64,000 nucleotides of DNA, from positions 558,001-622,000 of the forward strand of contig NZ_MQVV01000010.1 in assembly GCF_002954355.1 (NCBI RefSeq), given 5' to 3'. Every line of letters begins with the position of its first letter. The stretch's first letter is position 1. The stretch comes from Nonlabens tegetincola. GTDB taxonomy: Bacteria; Bacteroidota; Bacteroidia; Flavobacteriales; Flavobacteriaceae. Under the pieces are notes generated by a model. The model did no database searches. It was not told the origin of the DNA and saw nothing but the letters and a program-made list of their open reading frames with translations. A program made the position numbers and the translations under genes. This document shows, piece after piece, positions 1,910-34,958 of the stretch.

Positions 1910-4012
1910 ATGAGATCAATTCTCTCTTTAATTTTTATACTGTCTTCTATAACAGGTGTAGCTCAAACAAGTATAGAGAAATTCCCTATTTTTAGTAATT
2001 GTGAATCAGTTTTATCCAGTGAACTGTCAGGCTGTTTTTATGAGGAATTATACGTGCAGCTTCAAAATAATTATGATCACCCAAAAGATGTTAGCTCTAG
2101 TAGTGCGACTATTAGGTTTGAAGTAAATAAAGACGGTGAGTTTATTGTTATCACCTTAGACTCAAAAGAGCAAGATGTAAAAAATGAATTGAGAAAAGCT
2201 TTTAATTCATTGCCCAAAATTACGCCACCTAGCTACAACGGAAATTCCACGTTTATGCAATTTGTTATAAACACACCGGTTCCATTGGTGTCAGGTGGTT
2301 CCTTTGTTACGTTTGATGAAAAGCAAAATACTGCATCGCCAGCAAAGAATGATGTGGTCAATGACTTAGACAGTATCGCTTTCGCGAAAGCGAACAATGA
2401 TTACCAAGTTATCAAATCAAATAAATACACCAATCAAGAATTACTCTCAAACGCAATAATTCCTTTTTCGTATCAGCGTTATGCACCATATGAGGCTGCT
2501 ATGAACAAAATTGGTACTAATGCTCATAGTAGTATTAAACCTTATACTTTTAATCAAGTAGGAGCTTATTTTGATTTAGAAGCACAGCGCTCTAGTTTAA
2601 CAGAAGAACGCACAACATGGTTAGGTCGCAAATGGTGGAATGAGCACTTTTTTAGAGTTGCAGGAGATGATTACTGGTTTGTAATAGATCCAGGAGTAGA
2701 CCTACAGTTGGGTAAAGATTTTGACGCCGATATTAATACTTTTAATAATACAAGGCTTGCGATGGTAAACGGTGGTATCGGTAAGCAAATAACATTTGGA
2801 GCTACGATTCAAGAATCTCAAGGTCGATTTGCAGATTATTTCAATCGAGAAATCACGCTGCGAGCACCCGATGGCGGTAATCCAGGTATTGTGCCTGGTC
2901 GTGGTATTGCTGAAGATGGCGGTGAGAATATTTACGATTACCCAGTAGCAACAGGTTATATTAATTACAAACCTAGCAAGTATTTTGATTTACAATTAGG
3001 TCATGGGCAGCATTTTATAGGAGATGGATACAGATCTTTAATTTTAAGTGATAACTCAATGCCATTCCCTTACTTTAAAGTAAATGCAAATTTTTGGAAG
3101 CTCAACTACACTGTTCTTTACACCTCGCTAAGAGATGTGCGCAGTGAAGTAACTGCCGATGATAGTTTTCGTACTAAGTTTATGACTTTTCACTATTTAA
3201 GTTGGAATGCTACAAAGAGACTTAATATCGGATTGTTTGAAAGTGTGCTTTGGCAGGATGATAACCAAAGAGGATTTGATTTTAATTATATTAATCCTAT
3301 CATTTTTTATCAAGCCATTGAATTACAAACAGGTTCACGAGGTGGAAATGCTCTAATAGGCGCTACTGCAAAATATAAATTCACCAATAGGATTACGGGA
3401 TATGGGCAGCTTGTTTTTGACGAGTTTTCTAGTGATGCCGTGGCTGGTGGTGGTAGTTTTAAGAATAAAAGTGCCTTTCAATTAGGTGTAAAATGGCAAA
3501 ATGCTTTTATTAATGGTTTAATGCTTCAAGCCGAGTATAATCGGGTAAGGCCTTTTACTTACAGTCATAATTCTATCGTTCTTAATTATGGTAATAGTAA
3601 CCAAGCGCTTGCTCATCCATGGGGTGCAAACTTCTATGAGATGATTTTTATAGGCCGATATGACTATAAACGATGGTATGGGATCGGTAAAGTTATTTTA
3701 GGGGAACGTGGTTATGATATATTATCAAATAGCGACAATCTTGCTTATGGAGGAAATATATACACCAGTGAAGATAATCGCGCATTTGAAAACGGGAATG
3801 AAGTAGCTCAAGGTAATACCGCAAGCTATTTTTATGGGCAAATTGAAGCAGGATATTTAATCAATCCAGCCTCAAACTTAAAAGTATATGCACAGCTTAT
3901 TTATCGTGATATTTCTCCTCAAGTAGATAACGTAAGAGTGGTTGATCAATCCACAACCTGGTTTAACATAGGATTGCGCACCGATATAATGAACTGGTCT
4001 TACGACAGGTAA
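1910..4012 (+). CDS. RemB-like / Wzi-like outer-membrane beta-barrel protein with TonB-like N-terminal domain
   Basis: After a signal peptide (about 1-18), residues 20-125 resemble the C-terminal domains of the two upstream TonB-like proteins, with the same Phe-Pro-x-Phe-x-x-Cys, second Cys and Leu-Pro-Lys-x-x-Pro pattern. After a linker of about 75 residues, residues 200-700 are rich in alternating aromatic beta strands, as in capsule-assembly (Wzi-like) barrels and the gliding protein RemB of flavobacteria. Its 700 residues suit RemB-type proteins. It is likely an outer-membrane protein with a periplasmic module, linked to gliding or surface polysaccharide. A GCTTTCGCGAAAGC palindrome lies in the linker and is read as Ala-Phe-Ala-Lys-Ala. 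The RemB name is recalled from family knowledge, not proven. Confidence 0.72.
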   Translation: MRSILSLIFILSSITGVAQTSIEKFPIFSNCESVLSSELSGCFYEELYVQLQNNYDHPKDVSSSSATIRFEVNKDGEFIVITLDSKEQDVKNELRKAFNSLPKITPPSYNGNSTFMQFVINTPVPLVSGGSFVTFDEKQNTASPAKNDVVNDLDSIAFAKANNDYQVIKSNKYTNQELLSNAIIPFSYQRYAPYEAAMNKIGTNAHSSIKPYTFNQVGAYFDLEAQRSSLTEERTTWLGRKWWNEHFFRVAGDDYWFVIDPGVDLQLGKDFDADINTFNNTRLAMVNGGIGKQITFGATIQESQGRFADYFNREITLRAPDGGNPGIVPGRGIAEDGGENIYDYPVATGYINYKPSKYFDLQLGHGQHFIGDGYRSLILSDNSMPFPYFKVNANFWKLNYTVLYTSLRDVRSEVTADDSFRTKFMTFHYLSWNATKRLNIGLFESVLWQDDNQRGFDFNYINPIIFYQAIELQTGSRGGNALIGATAKYKFTNRITGYGQLVFDEFSSDAVAGGGSFKNKSAFQLGVKWQNAFINGLMLQAEYNRVRPFTYSHNSIVLNYGNSNQALAHPWGANFYEMIFIGRYDYKRWYGIGKVILGERGYDILSNSDNLAYGGNIYTSEDNRAFENGNEVAQGNTASYFYGQIEAGYLINPASNLKVYAQLIYRDISPQVDNVRVVDQSTTWFNIGLRTDIMNWSYDR
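2376..2393. repeat. GCTTTCGCGAAAGC palindrome (copy 1, intragenic)
   Basis: An 18-bp perfect palindrome inside the RemB-like gene, translated as Ala-Phe-Ala-Lys-Ala in the linker between the two domains. Confidence 0.95.
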
Positions 4013-4081: not shown

Positions 4082-4149
4082 CACTCGCTTTAAGCGATAC
4101 GTCAGATAGTCTGGCATACATAATATTCATTATTTCAAATAATTTTGGC

Positions 4150-4419
4150 ATGTATTTAACTGCAGAAAAAAAAGCTGAAATCTTTTCAAAGTATGGAAAG
4201 TCAGTAAACGATACTGGTAACACTGATGCGCAAATCGCGTTATTCACTTACCGTATCAATCACTTAACAGAACACCTTAAGAAAAACCGTCACGATTTTA
4301 ATACAGAGCGTAGCTTGGTTAAATTGGTAGGTAAGCGTCGTTCATTACTTGATTACCTTATGAAGAAGGATATCTTAAGATATCGTGAGCTTATTAAGGA
4401 ATTAGGAATAAGAAAGTAA
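4150..4419 (+). CDS. rpsO: 30S ribosomal protein S15
   Basis: This is the small-subunit protein that binds the central domain of 16S rRNA early in assembly. It is 89 residues, the standard length, and has the family motifs: an N-terminal segment with Thr-Gly-x-x-x-x-Gln, the central His-Leu-x-x-His-x-Lys-x-x-x-x-Asp helix, and Arg-Arg-x-Leu-Leu-x-Tyr-Leu. It is followed by a terminator and then pnp, the common rpsO-pnp order in bacteria. The leader between promoter and start contains short inverted repeats (CGCTT/AAGCG at about 4086-4096 and CAGA/TCTG near 4103) that could serve S15 autoregulation; this is speculation. Confidence 0.97.
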   Translation: MYLTAEKKAEIFSKYGKSVNDTGNTDAQIALFTYRINHLTEHLKKNRHDFNTERSLVKLVGKRRSLLDYLMKKDILRYRELIKELGIRK

Positions 4420-22418: not shown

Positions 22419-22500
22419 ATTATATTTTTTATTCACCTAGTTATCAAGGTTAATTTTTTCTCATTTTTAAATATTTACTTGATTTTTAATAATTCTGTAT

Positions 22501-22508
22501 TACTTTTA
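22501..22508 (+). promoter_or_regulatory. Promoter of the aromatic amino acid operon
   Basis: TACTTTTA (one mismatch to TAnnTTTG) is preceded by TTG at 22479-22481 with exactly 19 bp between. Transcription would begin only a few bases before the leader-peptide ATG at 22518. Confidence 0.7.
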
Positions 22509-22517
22509 CCATCAATT

Positions 22518-22568
22518 ATGAACAACAATCATTTCTGGTACGGATATTACTTTTACCCAAAAGGGTAA
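22518..22568 (+). CDS. Aromatic amino acid attenuator leader peptide
   Basis: A 16-codon frame encodes MNNNHFWYGYYFYPKG and a stop. Seven of the eight residues 6-13 are aromatic (Phe, Trp, four Tyr, Phe), an extreme composition expected for a leader peptide that senses charged tRNA-Phe, tRNA-Tyr and tRNA-Trp. It lies directly after a promoter and before a terminator that precedes an aminotransferase-tyrA-DAHP synthase operon. The stop codon abuts the sequence that forms the antiterminator, exactly as ribosome-mediated attenuation requires. This gene is far too short for automatic calling but the evidence is strong. Confidence 0.88.
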   Translation: MNNNHFWYGYYFYPKG

Positions 22569-22632
22569 CAGGACCGTGTGGAAATAATCTAATATATCTA
22601 AGTCCTGACCCTTTTAAGTCAGGACTTTTTTT
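22563..22632 (+). promoter_or_regulatory. Ribosome-mediated transcription attenuator
   Basis: Two mutually exclusive hairpins can be read. Antiterminator: GGGT (22563-22566) plus CAGGAC (22569-22574), with a 2-nt AA bulge, pair with GTCCTGACCC (22602-22611). Terminator: AGTCCTGAC (22601-22609) pairs with GTCAGGACT (22618-22626) before a T run. A ribosome that finishes the leader peptide at 22566-22568 would cover the left antiterminator arm and let the terminator form; a ribosome stalled on Tyr/Phe codons (22533-22556) would leave it free and allow read-through. Confidence 0.85.
22600..22632 (+). terminator. Attenuator terminator hairpin
   Basis: A perfect GC-containing stem of ten pairs (22600-22609 with 22618-22627), loop of 8 nt, then T residues to 22632. 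It lies 75 bp before the aminotransferase start. Confidence 0.92.
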
Positions 22633-22707
22633 ATTGGGTCATTTTTCAATCAGATTAAATTTTTAAAGCTTCACTCAAGTAAGTGAAATAAGAATATAAA
22701 AATTATC

Positions 22708-23865
22708 ATGCTAGTTGCAGCAAATAGATTAAATAATGTCAAAGAATACTACTTCTCTCAAAAATTGAAAGAAGTGCGAGAACTTGTAGCATCTGGCAAG
22801 CCTGTTATAAATGCAGGAATTGGTAGCCCAGATTTATTGCCACCGCAAGAGGTTGTTAACACCATCAGTCAGGCTGTTAAAGAACCTTATGCAAATAAAT
22901 ATCAGAGTTATTTAGGTCTTCCCGAATTAAGATCTGCTATGGCTCAATTTTATGAAAGCCACTATGGAGTGTGTGTGAATCCCGACGGTCAAATATTACC
23001 ACTCATGGGTAGCAAGGAAGGAATTATGCACATCTCCTTGGCTTTCTTAAATTCTGGTGATCAGGTTCTTGTACCTGATCCTGGTTACCCAACTTACTCT
23101 GCGGTTGCGCAGTTGTGTGAGGCTCAGGCAATACCATACACTCTAAAAAAAGAGTGTGGTTATCAACCAGAATTTGACCAATTAGAAAAATTAGATCTAT
23201 CAAAGGTAAAAATTATGTGGGTAAACTATCCACACATGCCTACAGGAGCTAGGGCTACTCGTGATGTTTTTGAAAAATTGATTGCTTTTGGTAAAAGACA
23301 TAACATACTCATTGTAAATGATAACCCATACAGTCTTATAGGATATGAACGACCATTGAGTATAATGAAAATTGAAGGTGTTTCCAATGGTATTATCGAG
23401 CTTAATTCATTAAGCAAATCTTTCAATATTGCAGGATGGCGAGTAGGAATGATGATAGCGAGTAAGGAGTTAATAAATCAGGTTCTAAAGGTCAAAACCA
23501 ATATGGATAGCGGTATGTTTTACGGTATTCAACAAGGTGCAATTACCGCGCTTAGAACTTCGAAATATTGGTTGCAAGAGCAAAATCATACTTATGCATC
23601 CAGAAGAGTTTTGATGGAAGAATTTGCTAGATCTCTAGATTGCAGGCCTATTAATAAAGAAGGTGGTATGTTTTTATGGTGTGCATTGCCACAAGGTAAA
23701 AAGGATTCATTGTCTTTTGTGGATGAGGTTCTTGCTAGATATGAAGTGTTTATTGCACCTGGAGATATTTTTGGTAACGAAGGTAAAGGACATGTTCGTT
23801 TTTCACTTTGTGTTCCCGAGGATCAAATAAAAACAATGTTGAATCGCACACTAATGACCGTATGA
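22708..23865 (+). CDS. PLP-dependent class I/II aminotransferase (aromatic operon)
   Basis: This is a fold-type I aminotransferase of 385 residues. It shows Ile-Gly-Ser-Pro-Asp near residue 38, Asp-Pro-Gly-Tyr-Pro-x-Tyr, Asn-Tyr-Pro-x-x-Pro-Thr-Gly-Ala, Asn-Asp-Asn-Pro-Tyr (PLP-binding Asp/Tyr), the Schiff-base Lys in Ser-Leu-Ser-Lys-Ser-Phe-Asn, and Arg in Gly-His-Val-Arg-Phe-Ser. Being first in the operon with tyrA and DAHP synthase, it is likely the transaminase forming Phe/Tyr from phenylpyruvate and hydroxyphenylpyruvate. Its 3' end overlaps tyrA by 4 bp. Expression is controlled by the upstream attenuator. Confidence 0.92.
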   Translation: MLVAANRLNNVKEYYFSQKLKEVRELVASGKPVINAGIGSPDLLPPQEVVNTISQAVKEPYANKYQSYLGLPELRSAMAQFYESHYGVCVNPDGQILPLMGSKEGIMHISLAFLNSGDQVLVPDPGYPTYSAVAQLCEAQAIPYTLKKECGYQPEFDQLEKLDLSKVKIMWVNYPHMPTGARATRDVFEKLIAFGKRHNILIVNDNPYSLIGYERPLSIMKIEGVSNGIIELNSLSKSFNIAGWRVGMMIASKELINQVLKVKTNMDSGMFYGIQQGAITALRTSKYWLQEQNHTYASRRVLMEEFARSLDCRPINKEGGMFLWCALPQGKKDSLSFVDEVLARYEVFIAPGDIFGNEGKGHVRFSLCVPEDQIKTMLNRTLMTV

Positions 23866-24725
23866 TTAATAAAATAGCAGTGATAGGCGTCGGGTTAATA
23901 GGTGGTTCGATAGTAAGGGATTGTAAGAAAAAATGGCCTAATTTAGAATGTACAGGGATTGATATTAATCCAAAGAATATAAGCAAGGCTGTTGAGCTAG
24001 GTTGGGTTGATAAACAAGGATCTATCAACGACTTGCAAAACATGGATGTGGTGATAATCTCCATACCAGTAAATGCAATAGAAAATGAGCTCAAGGATAT
24101 TCTAGATCGTATATCGCCAAATACCTTGGTAATGGATACGGGTTCTACAAAAAATGCCATTTGTAAATCAGTAGAAAATCATAAAAACAGACATCAATTT
24201 CTAGCAGCCCATCCTATTGCAGGAACCGAGTATTCGGGTCCAGATGCGGCTTTAGAAGGTCTCTTTATAGACAAAACAATGATTGTTTGTGAAATTGAGA
24301 AAACACAATTTAAATTACAAAATAGAGCCAAAGAAATTTTTGAAACTTTAAAGTGTAAAGTGCGTTACATGACACCACTAGCACACGATAAGCATATCGC
24401 TTATGTTTCACATCTTTCCCATATCTCCAGCTTCATGCTGGGTAAAACAGTTATGCAGGAAGAGGAAAGTGAACGAGATATTTTTGATCTAGCAGGTAGT
24501 GGTTTTGAAAGTACTGTAAGACTAGCAAAAAGTTCGCCAGCTATGTGGACAGCTATTTTTTCTCAAAACAAAGAGCACGTTATAGCTAGTTTAGATAGGT
24601 ATGTAGAAAATTTATCACGCTTTCGCGAAAGCATAATCAACAACGACACTACTACCATGTATAAAGAGTTAGAGTCGACAAATAGAATAAAAAATATATT
24701 AGAAGGAATAAAAAATGGAGAATAA
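23862..24725 (+). CDS. tyrA: Prephenate dehydrogenase
   Basis: This enzyme oxidatively decarboxylates prephenate to 4-hydroxyphenylpyruvate for tyrosine. The 287-residue protein has the NAD-binding Gly-Val-Gly-Leu-Ile-Gly-Gly-Ser, Ser-Ile-Pro-Val-Asn-Ala, Met-Asp-Thr-Gly-Ser-Thr-Lys, and Ala-His-Pro-Ile-Ala-Gly-Thr-Glu with the catalytic His, followed by the helical dimerisation domain. I start at ATG 23862, which overlaps the aminotransferase stop (ATGA). A GCTTTCGCGAAAGC copy lies in the C-terminal third and is read as Arg-Phe-Arg-Glu-Ser. The 3' end overlaps the next gene by 11 bp. Confidence 0.93.
   Translation: MINKIAVIGVGLIGGSIVRDCKKKWPNLECTGIDINPKNISKAVELGWVDKQGSINDLQNMDVVIISIPVNAIENELKDILDRISPNTLVMDTGSTKNAICKSVENHKNRHQFLAAHPIAGTEYSGPDAALEGLFIDKTMIVCEIEKTQFKLQNRAKEIFETLKCKVRYMTPLAHDKHIAYVSHLSHISSFMLGKTVMQEEESERDIFDLAGSGFESTVRLAKSSPAMWTAIFSQNKEHVIASLDRYVENLSRFRESIINNDTTTMYKELESTNRIKNILEGIKNGE
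24619..24632. repeat. GCTTTCGCGAAAGC palindrome (copy 7, inside tyrA)
   Basis: A 14-bp perfect copy read in frame as part of Ser-Arg-Phe-Arg-Glu-Ser. Confidence 0.95.
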
Positions 24726-25800
24726 GAAAGAATTTAAAAGTTGGTTAGAAGGCCATAACTTACCGCATCCACTAGTGATTGCAGGACCATGTAGTGCCGA
24801 AACTGAAGAGCAAGTTTTGAAAATTGCTCATGAATTAAAAGATAGTGATGTGACCTATTACCGCGCCGGTATATGGAAGCCGCGCACGAGACCTGGGAAT
24901 TTTGAAGGAGTAGGAGCAATAGGTCTTAAATGGTTACAACGAGTAAAAGAAGAAACAGGACTATTAACCGCAACCGAAGTAGCTAATCGCAATCACGTGG
25001 AACTAGCACTAGAACACGATATTGATATGCTTTGGATAGGAGCCCGATCAACAGTGAGTCCATTTATAGTGCAAGAAATTGCCGATGCTCTAGAAGGTAC
25101 AGATAAAGTAGTGCTTATAAAAAATCCAGTCAATCCGGATTTAGCATTATGGATAGGAGCAGTTGAGCGTATTCACAATGCAGGTATCAATAAATTGGGA
25201 GTGATTCATAGAGGATTTTCTACCTATGACAAATCTAAATATAGAAATAATCCAGAATGGCAAATCGCAGTAGACTTTCAAACTAGGTTTCCAGATATAC
25301 CTTTAATTAATGACCCTTCTCATATTACAGGTAAACGAGATATGATATTTGATGTGTCACAGACTGCGCTTGATTTGAATTTTGATGGTTTGATGATTGA
25401 AACGCATCACACGCCAGATAAGGCATGGAGCGATGCGGCCCAACAAGTTACTCCAGATACCCTAAAACAAATCTTTAAAGATTTGAGAATAAGAAAAACA
25501 AGCGATAACGAAGCAGTGTACAAACAAGAACTCAGTCAATTAAGAGCTCAAATCGATGTTGTCGATCAAGACTTAATTGAAACTATGGGTAGACGTATGA
25601 AAATAGCCGACTCTATAGGTGCTCTTAAAAAGGAACGTAACGTAGCAATTCTTCAATCAAAAAGGTGGAACGAGATCTTAGGAAGAATGATCTTACTAGG
25701 TGAAGAACAAGGCTTGAGTGAAGAATTCATTCTTAAGGTATTCAAAGCTGTACATCAAGAATCAATTGCACATCAAGAGAAAGTGATTAAAGCAGAATAA
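24715..25800 (+). CDS. Bifunctional 3-deoxy-7-phosphoheptulonate synthase / chorismate mutase
   Basis: This fusion catalyses the first step of the shikimate pathway and the branch step from chorismate to prephenate. Residues 1-260 form a DAHP synthase with Ile-Ala-Gly-Pro-Cys-Ser-Ala-Glu, Lys-Pro-Arg-Thr, a Trp-Ile-Gly-Ala-Arg, Lys-Asn-Pro-Val and His-Arg-Gly-Phe motif set. Residues 270-361 form an AroQ-type chorismate mutase with Leu-Arg-x-Gln-Ile-Asp and a Lys-Lys-Glu-Arg loop. This order is the usual one in Bacteroidota, where the mutase domain can mediate feedback control. It is the third gene of the attenuator-controlled operon and overlaps tyrA. Confidence 0.93.
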   Translation: MENKKEFKSWLEGHNLPHPLVIAGPCSAETEEQVLKIAHELKDSDVTYYRAGIWKPRTRPGNFEGVGAIGLKWLQRVKEETGLLTATEVANRNHVELALEHDIDMLWIGARSTVSPFIVQEIADALEGTDKVVLIKNPVNPDLALWIGAVERIHNAGINKLGVIHRGFSTYDKSKYRNNPEWQIAVDFQTRFPDIPLINDPSHITGKRDMIFDVSQTALDLNFDGLMIETHHTPDKAWSDAAQQVTPDTLKQIFKDLRIRKTSDNEAVYKQELSQLRAQIDVVDQDLIETMGRRMKIADSIGALKKERNVAILQSKRWNEILGRMILLGEEQGLSEEFILKVFKAVHQESIAHQEKVIKAE

Positions 25801-33617: not shown

Positions 33618-34958
33618 TTAATTCTCAAGATTTAAGGATTGAATTCCGGAGTAGTTTATACTTAAACTCCGTGTTTTAAAACCGTTAGAGTACATTTTAA
33701 AATCTTGCTCATCCGTGCTTTCTTGATTAAAATCATATTCCCAAACAACTCTTTTGTCCATCGTCACTTCTCTGATAATATTACCGGCTGTGCTAGTTAT
33801 TAATATGTTTCCATTTCTTAGTCTTTGACATCCTGAAGTTAGTTTTGACAAAATAGAATTAGAAGAATACTCCCAACTTACATTTGATGGTATGTTACCG
33901 ATGTCTAGAACGTTTGGATAATTGCCGATTTCAGAAATATTTACGTTTATTGCCTTGACTGTTGAATATTCAACATTATCCAGATTATCAAAAACCAGAA
34001 AATTTTCGAATTGTCCATTACTCTTGAAAAATGAAGCGTCGTGTTGTCCTGTTATTTTTCTATCATTACTATTTCCTGTCTTAAAGTTTACAGGATTTCC
34101 CCATCTAAATAATATATCGCCTCCTTTGCCATAATTTCCACCTAAGCTAGTCCTGGCCTCTTCGGTACTAGTACTGTGATCAATTATAAAGAATTCATTC
34201 AAAGTGCGACTGTTAATTATTATTTGATCAAATTCGGTGATATAATTAAGACTATTCACGTGTGTATAATTTTCTCCTCCAGCACCAAGATTTACATCAA
34301 ATAACTCAGGATGGTCTGCGATATTGCCATAGTTGCTTCGATTCACATCAAAGTCTTGGATTATGTGGTCCCATAATGACCATTCCCAAATGATATTAGC
34401 CTGATTATTTCCTACTGGTTGTATTTCAATTACTTTATCAATAACTAACCTGTTGTCAAACAGTTTATTTGGATCTCTTCCAGCTTCCACGCACATATTA
34501 AAATCTATAACTTCCCAAACACTTGCTAGAATATTACCATTGGGTAATAGCGCTATGTCATGATGAAGAGCTTGAGTTGAATTATCTAAATGCCATTCCC
34601 AAACTAGTGCGTTATTTTTATCTATAATTTGTAATTTTCCAGTTTTACCAGGAATATTAATTCCATTATCCGCATTCGTGAATATACTTCTTAATACGGA
34701 ACCGTCTTTCATCAAATAAGCCATGAGAACTTCGTCACCTTCATTTGACCACGACTGTTGTAATTTACCAGTTCGATCTATTAGATAGGTCGTGTCTTGT
34801 CTCATGGGCGTTATTAAAATATAATCATCCTCAAAATGATCGTTTTCATATACTGTGATAGCTTGATTAAGAGCTGGTTTTAAAATTTGATTATCGTCTT
34901 GATTGCAAGAAATTAAGGAGATTACTAAGATTAAAACGGTAATGTAGGAATATTTCAT
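33618..34958 (-). CDS. Arylsulfotransferase-like (ASST) lipoprotein
   Basis: The 446-residue product has a lipoprotein signal with Leu-Ile-Ser-Cys near residue 18 and then a beta-propeller with repeated Trp-Glu-Trp/Trp-Glu-Tyr strands, as in aryl-sulfate sulfotransferases. Family-like motifs include Trp-Glu-Trp-His-Leu, His-His-Asp-Ile-Ala-Leu-Leu-Pro-Asn-Gly-Asn (a catalytic His region) and Gln-His-Asp-Ala near residue 300. It should be attached to the outer membrane or face the periplasm. Its substrate is unknown; it may act on sulfated phenols or use only the propeller fold. It converges with rlmN with no gap. Confidence 0.78.
   Translation of the reverse strand: MKYSYITVLILVISLISCNQDDNQILKPALNQAITVYENDHFEDDYILITPMRQDTTYLIDRTGKLQQSWSNEGDEVLMAYLMKDGSVLRSIFTNADNGINIPGKTGKLQIIDKNNALVWEWHLDNSTQALHHDIALLPNGNILASVWEVIDFNMCVEAGRDPNKLFDNRLVIDKVIEIQPVGNNQANIIWEWSLWDHIIQDFDVNRSNYGNIADHPELFDVNLGAGGENYTHVNSLNYITEFDQIIINSRTLNEFFIIDHSTSTEEARTSLGGNYGKGGDILFRWGNPVNFKTGNSNDRKITGQHDASFFKSNGQFENFLVFDNLDNVEYSTVKAINVNISEIGNYPNVLDIGNIPSNVSWEYSSNSILSKLTSGCQRLRNGNILITSTAGNIIREVTMDKRVVWEYDFNQESTDEQDFKMYSNGFKTRSLSINYSGIQSLNLEN

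Follow-up and report, generated by a model that had tools for sequence, protein, structure and literature searches.

A probable ribosome-mediated transcription attenuator upstream of an aromatic amino acid operon without pheA in Nonlabens tegetincola

The operon and its leader

The window, by which we mean the whole 64,000 nucleotide stretch of N. tegetincola DNA that was analysed, contains three adjoining genes of aromatic amino acid metabolism preceded by a short leader region, with the following features.

22479..22508, + strand: putative Bacteroidota promoter (TTG at 22479-22481, 19 nt, then a -7 box, TACTTTTA, at 22501-22508)
22518..22568, + strand: leader peptide ORF MNNNHFWYGYYFYPKG, 16 codons from the ATG at 22518, stop codon TAA at 22566-22568
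22533..22556, + strand: putative regulatory codons 6-13, F W Y G Y Y F Y, aromatic in seven of eight positions (read from the sequence)
22563..22574, + strand: strand 2, predicted left arm of the antiterminator, GGGTAACAGGAC, overlapping the leader stop codon (folding; covariation with strand 3)
22602..22611, + strand: strand 3, predicted right arm of the antiterminator, GTCCTGACCC (duplex and folding tests)
22600..22632, + strand: intrinsic terminator, stem 22600-22609/22618-22627, T tract 22626-22632 (two-sided changes in relatives)
22633..22707, + strand: junction at which pheA lies in congeners, here the 75 nt before the aminotransferase gene
22708..23865, + strand: class I/II aminotransferase (Pfam PF00155), here the first gene under the putative control
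23862..24725, + strand: tyrA, prephenate dehydrogenase (Pfam PF02153, PF20463)
24715..25800, + strand: DAHP synthase fused to chorismate mutase (Pfam PF00793, PF01817)

The best NCBIfam matches of the aminotransferase are to LL-diaminopimelate aminotransferase models, with scores under their cut-offs. No DAHP synthase other than the fused protein was found in this genome: NCBIfam identifies the second PF00793 match as a KDO8P synthase, and a search of the genome for PF01474 gave no match. The gene upstream of the leader encodes an ABC transporter and lies on the reverse strand, an arrangement also present in 16 of 17 congeners.

The intrinsic terminator sits between the leader ORF and the first gene. 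The antiterminator (22563-22574/22602-22611) comprises 10 pairs with a 2 nt bulge, and because positions 22602-22609 are common to both structures it and the terminator would be mutually exclusive. All of the elements named in the original prediction, which had been made from the sequence alone, are present at the coordinates listed above: the promoter, the 16-codon frame with seven aromatic codons in eight, the two exclusive hairpins, and the contact of one of them with the leader stop codon.

The leader frame is the sole ORF of 8-40 amino acids with at least seven aromatics in eight residues within the 64 kb window, where 0.10 such ORFs are expected by chance (mean of 20 dinucleotide shuffles); a second, weaker ORF with six aromatics in eight lies near position 34030, and ORFs of this kind occur at about chance frequency. 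Only one terminator-like site was found between 22380 and 22720 (shuffles, mean 0.0). When folds were compared with those of shuffled sequences the terminator gave a z-score of -5.3, the antiterminator piece -2.8 and the whole leader -3.35, while the 5′ part of the leader, with the strand 1:2 hairpin, folds more weakly (z-score -1.7, equalled by 14 of 200 shuffles). Across the leaders of relatives, the strand 1:2 hairpin of the minimum-energy fold was unsupported against codon-shuffled controls (median z-score -0.92); its z-score falls below -2 in 23 of 99 leaders and is -0.38 in that of the window. At the gathering score no Rfam family matches the leader. Rfam's sole match in the window, an S15 leader (RF00114) at 4095-4206, lies elsewhere and is barely above its gathering score.

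The predicted start of transcription

Passages of PMC9723704 describe the F. psychrophilum -7 box as TAnnTTTG, located at -12 to -5. The box in the window has A at its last position where G is expected, and if it is placed at -12 to -5 the predicted transcription start falls at about 22513, giving a 5′UTR of about 5 nt. All 17 congeners have a similar box at a nearly equal distance from the leader ORF (predicted 5′UTR 5-8 nt), and elsewhere the predicted lengths are mostly 12-28 nt, with some of 3-9 nt. By eye, we place the starts of the trp and his leaders of the window's genome (see below) about 1 nt and 3 nt, respectively, before their frames. Leaderless mRNAs are put at 5.5 % in F. psychrophilum in passages of PMC9723704, and those of PMC7366714 report that approximately 3.7 % of mapped 5′UTRs in B. 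thetaiotaomicron are shorter than 10 nt and that Shine-Dalgarno sequences are missing from Bacteroidetes mRNAs. 5′UTRs as short as those predicted here are thus rarely seen among mapped mRNAs, the starts at this locus being predictions from promoter-like sequences.

Conservation of the leader among relatives

Relatives were collected with the aminotransferase, taking the best 80 of 596 by similarity, which makes this a non-random sample, together with 30 more loci that are the best 30 from the window's genome and further relatives. One of the latter (L081) is the window itself, some loci repeat a genome (L006 and L097 have a common leader, L068 and L101 encode the same peptide), and L107 belongs to another family of the order. 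An aromatic leader is present upstream in all 106 loci with enough upstream sequence, 104 of them starting with ATG and two (L002 and L014) with GTG; the loci L064, L066, L078 and L093, with 830 nt or less upstream, are too short to show a leader and stand outside this count. Each of the 104 ATG leaders (the window counted once) is followed by a T tract and lies upstream of the aminotransferase gene, and so does each of the two GTG leaders with its T tract. The run of aromatic codons is therefore conserved, as the original prediction implied that it should be.

When the leader detector was applied to the 104 loci with a threshold of at least seven aromatics in eight, it returned 60 in the sense orientation and none in either the antisense or the shuffled sequences; with at least five in eight the corresponding numbers were 104, 5 and 3. 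Among five relatives ranked under the best 30 (L180-L184) a leader was detected in four; the remaining one, L180, has a leader that is recognizable by eye (MFNAYFSWFYFFYSKGIEA, with hairpin and T tract), an example of how the detector undercounts. In all 103 ATG loci besides the window, and also in L002 and L014, pheA lies between the leader and the aminotransferase gene.

Covariation and spacing of the stems

Identical leader regions were collapsed, leaving 100 of the 104 in a first MAFFT alignment and 99 in a second alignment and in the alignment-free test described below. The terminator pairs are formed in 97 % and 99.8 % of the cells of the two MAFFT alignments (100 and 99 leaders, respectively), and 113 and 112 cells are changed on both sides; in the controls, slid versions of the stem are 21-57 % paired and strands shuffled between leaders give a mean of 88 %. 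For the antiterminator, pairs between strands 2 and 3 are formed in 64-65 % of cells in the global alignment, compared with a mean of 63 % and a maximum of 64 % for shuffled strands, and sliding the pairing by one position raises the fraction to 75 %. These pairs do not stand out, since the register of strand 2 differs from one group of leaders to another, and support for the antiterminator therefore depends on a test that does not use the alignment.

In this test the 40 nt following the aromatic run were scanned for a match to the 7 nt core of strand 3. Strand 2 pairs with its own strand 3 at a mean of 6.08 of 7 positions, reaching at least six in 76 of 99 leaders, while the cores of other arm types score 5.07 and permuted assignments average 5.29, with a maximum of 5.55 over 1000 permutations. 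With one leader for each of the 13 arm types the values are 6.12 and 5.05, and none of 2000 permutations reaches the own-arm value. In a control stretch, the 38 nt immediately preceding the terminator, at least six of seven positions are matched in only 16 of 99. The covariation that the original prediction led one to expect in both stems is thus evident for the terminator from its two-sided changes, and for the antiterminator from the alignment-free test only. Twenty-three of the 99 leaders score under six. Eleven of them stay below 5.5, and nine of these come from congeners of the window, whose antiterminators seem to consist of two shorter blocks. The duplex energy has a z-score below -2 in 72 of 105 rows and beats all 60 shuffles in 36 of the 105, and the energy of the window's own duplex between strands 2 and 3 is equalled by two to three of 60 shuffles.

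The distance from the last aromatic codon to the start of strand 2 is 7-12 nt in every one of the 76 clear cases among the 99 leaders, and 12 nt in the window. Of shuffled stretches, 6 % reach six of seven matches, and 20 % of those do so at 7-12 nt. With the footprint size of the E. coli ribosome, one halted at the last of the aromatic codons would be expected to end at about this offset.

Leaders outside the family

A match to prephenate dehydratase was found in 46 of 158 genomes of the class, which we take to be Bacteroidia, 42 of them outside the family. For 40 of these 42, all but G465 and G546, the sequence upstream of pheA was searched, and 28 have there a leader with five or more aromatics in eight, a hairpin and a T tract; 25 of the 28 reach six in eight, and antisense and shuffled controls gave none. 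In the other 12 loci no leader was found by the detector, which misses some.

We note that four of the 40 loci (L168, L169, L172 and L179), and also L184, carry two consecutive leader-plus-terminator units ahead of the pheA operon, which may be tandem attenuators with a common specificity.

Probable loss of pheA from the operon

The gene order leader, pheA, aminotransferase, tyrA, DAHP synthase/chorismate mutase is found in all 17 congeners with full upstream sequence, and the locus of a further congener (L132), which is cut by the end of its contig, agrees for the genes that are present. The genome of the window has no match to prephenate dehydratase (PF00800), a domain found in 14 of 14 control genomes. 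Both the departure of pheA from the operon and the missing match elsewhere in the genome had been overlooked in the original prediction. The distribution of pheA among the congeners suggests that it was lost in the window species, where the leader would have persisted after the loss.

In a survey of 396 genomes of the family, nine of which were identified by gaps in the numbering, prephenate dehydratase is missing from 29. Twenty-six of these also have no close aminotransferase (E-value of 10−60 or less), the remaining three being those of the window, G264 and G321. G321 was considered as a second case of pheA loss with the operon kept and was rejected, the contig beginning 138 nt before the aminotransferase gene. 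G264 has neither a pheA match nor a match to PF02153 (tyrA); its leader (L134, MQNMQMMYHKWLMLFLLKRV) keeps the frame and the terminator with three aromatic residues only, and its one congener, in which the whole operon is present, has a leader with ten (MKTANYTYYNWFYFFFNRRNETMYV). In this single genome, one of two sampled in the genus, the loss of pheA and tyrA accompanies an eroded aromatic run.

The window's leader contains two Phe, four Tyr and one Trp codons; among the congeners the numbers are 3-4 for Phe, 3-5 for Tyr and 1-2 for Trp. The window's Phe fraction (0.33) is the second-lowest of 104, after L017 (0.29), and a congener that retains pheA has a fraction of 0.38. These counts fit a shift in specificity following the loss of pheA; being built on single cases, they are only suggestive of such a retuning. 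Two other congeners, G003 and G006, have no match to prephenate dehydratase, to prephenate dehydrogenase or to a close aminotransferase, and the Phe/Tyr genes of the operon appear to have been lost from them.

Amino acids that the leader may sense

The original prediction held that a single peptide might sense all three aromatic amino acids. For phenylalanine and tyrosine this is supported by the presence of their codons in all 104 leaders counted; for tryptophan it is less secure, as only 55 of the 104 leaders have a Trp codon, a single one in 54 of these 55, and trpE in the same genome has a leader of its own with three Trp codons. This trpE leader (MFTRTLHTWWWNNTAQ; L138, reverse strand, approximately 2860-3000) encodes WWW and is followed by a hairpin and a T tract, its gene being an anthranilate synthase by Pfam with trpE as the best, under cut-off, NCBIfam match. 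A hisG leader with HHHH, hairpin and T tract (MKKQNLHHHHFIYSQQACK; L188, reverse strand) is also present.

The same attenuator could accordingly sense mainly tyrosine and phenylalanine, with the Trp codon incidental because a separate attenuator at trpE serves tryptophan, and we give this reading only slightly less than even weight. Against it, a Trp codon is present in the window and in all 17 of the congeners listed, and the operon's DAHP synthase also supplies the tryptophan branch; this being the only DAHP synthase found, control of the operon by tryptophan would make sense.

A model for control of the operon

The conservation of the leader, the covariation of its stems and the tight spacing between codons and stem bear out the attenuation logic of the original prediction, and we consider it very probable, on these comparative grounds, that the element is a ribosome-mediated transcription attenuator of the aminotransferase-tyrA-DAHP synthase/chorismate mutase operon. 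Transcription would begin a few bases upstream of the leader's AUG. With charged Phe, Tyr or Trp tRNA scarce, the leading ribosome would stall within codons 6-13, freeing strand 2 (22563-22574) to pair with strand 3 (22602-22611), so that no terminator forms and the operon is read. With all of these tRNAs charged, the ribosome would reach the stop codon inside strand 2 and cover that strand; strand 3 would then pair with strand 4 and transcription would stop at the T tract near 22630. The stalling of the ribosome and the response to each amino acid are what we infer from this arrangement. The ancestral element would have governed pheA together with the aminotransferase, tyrA and DAHP synthase/chorismate mutase genes, and after the loss of pheA the switch would drive tyrosine synthesis and the only DAHP synthase found.

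Other accounts of the terminator fare poorly. It could act constitutively in the leader or close the transcript of another gene, the aromatic frame then reflecting the U-richness of the sequence, and the region is indeed A+T-rich and the weaker aromatic ORF near 34030 is about what chance provides. Frames with seven aromatics in eight, however, are expected only 0.10 times per 64 kb, the gene upstream is on the opposite strand, and the conserved leader, its spacing and its covariation indicate that peptide and stems are coupled; we regard this explanation as very improbable. T-boxes, riboswitches and protein-binding leaders also switch terminators and might act on this one, but none is recognized on the leader by Rfam at the gathering score, and the space from the predicted start to the terminator is largely filled by the peptide frame and strand 2, making such a mechanism, if anything, even less probable than a constitutive terminator.

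Relation to known attenuators

The pheA (pheL) and trp leaders of enterobacteria are ribosome-mediated attenuators. The window's leader resembles them in having a short peptide with runs of regulatory codons before aromatic biosynthesis genes, and an alternative antiterminator and T-tailed terminator. It differs in its mixture of Phe and Tyr (and Trp) codons, the absence of an Rfam match, the very short predicted 5′UTR and the lack of a significant strand 1:2 hairpin across relatives. Several amino acids are read by single leaders in the thr (Thr/Ile) and ilv (Ile/Val/Leu) operons of E. coli, which the window's leader resembles in this respect, although the amino acids and genes are different.

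The supposition that such a leader was new to flavobacteria is weakened by a transcriptome study (PMC9723704, 2021), passages of which report signs of attenuation by leader peptides upstream of amino acid operons and describe a structured 5′ element, without an Rfam hit, before pheA in F. psychrophilum and other genera of the Flavobacteriaceae. That element and the window's leader share their operon position and bacterial family, whereas the window species is without pheA itself; the passages dealing with the element do not specify a peptide, its stems or spacing, or any covariation. An earlier listing of the leader may also exist in a comparative paper by Lopatovskaya and others (2010), which is cited in a passage of PMC4833913. 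The element is thus a well-supported ribosome-mediated attenuator of a known kind, its occurrence at pheA in the Flavobacteriaceae having been foreshadowed in part by published work, and an instructive gene loss lies behind the leader of the window.

A broader picture can be proposed tentatively, and we think it rather unlikely to hold in full: one family of aromatic attenuators would extend across much of Bacteroidia, with codons that track the pathway genes under control. In the window species the loss of pheA would have started a retuning from Phe plus Tyr to Tyr (two Phe, four Tyr), in another genus the loss of pheA and tyrA would have nearly erased the aromatic run, and elsewhere a second unit would have been added in series; for the window's genus, the transcript would be almost leaderless, as the trp and his leaders of the window's genome may be. 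If a multi-aromatic attenuator is truly so widespread, the coupling of translation to transcription termination would serve pathway control in Bacteroidetes, and gene losses inside the same operon would offer natural experiments on whether the codons of a leader track the product that is sensed.
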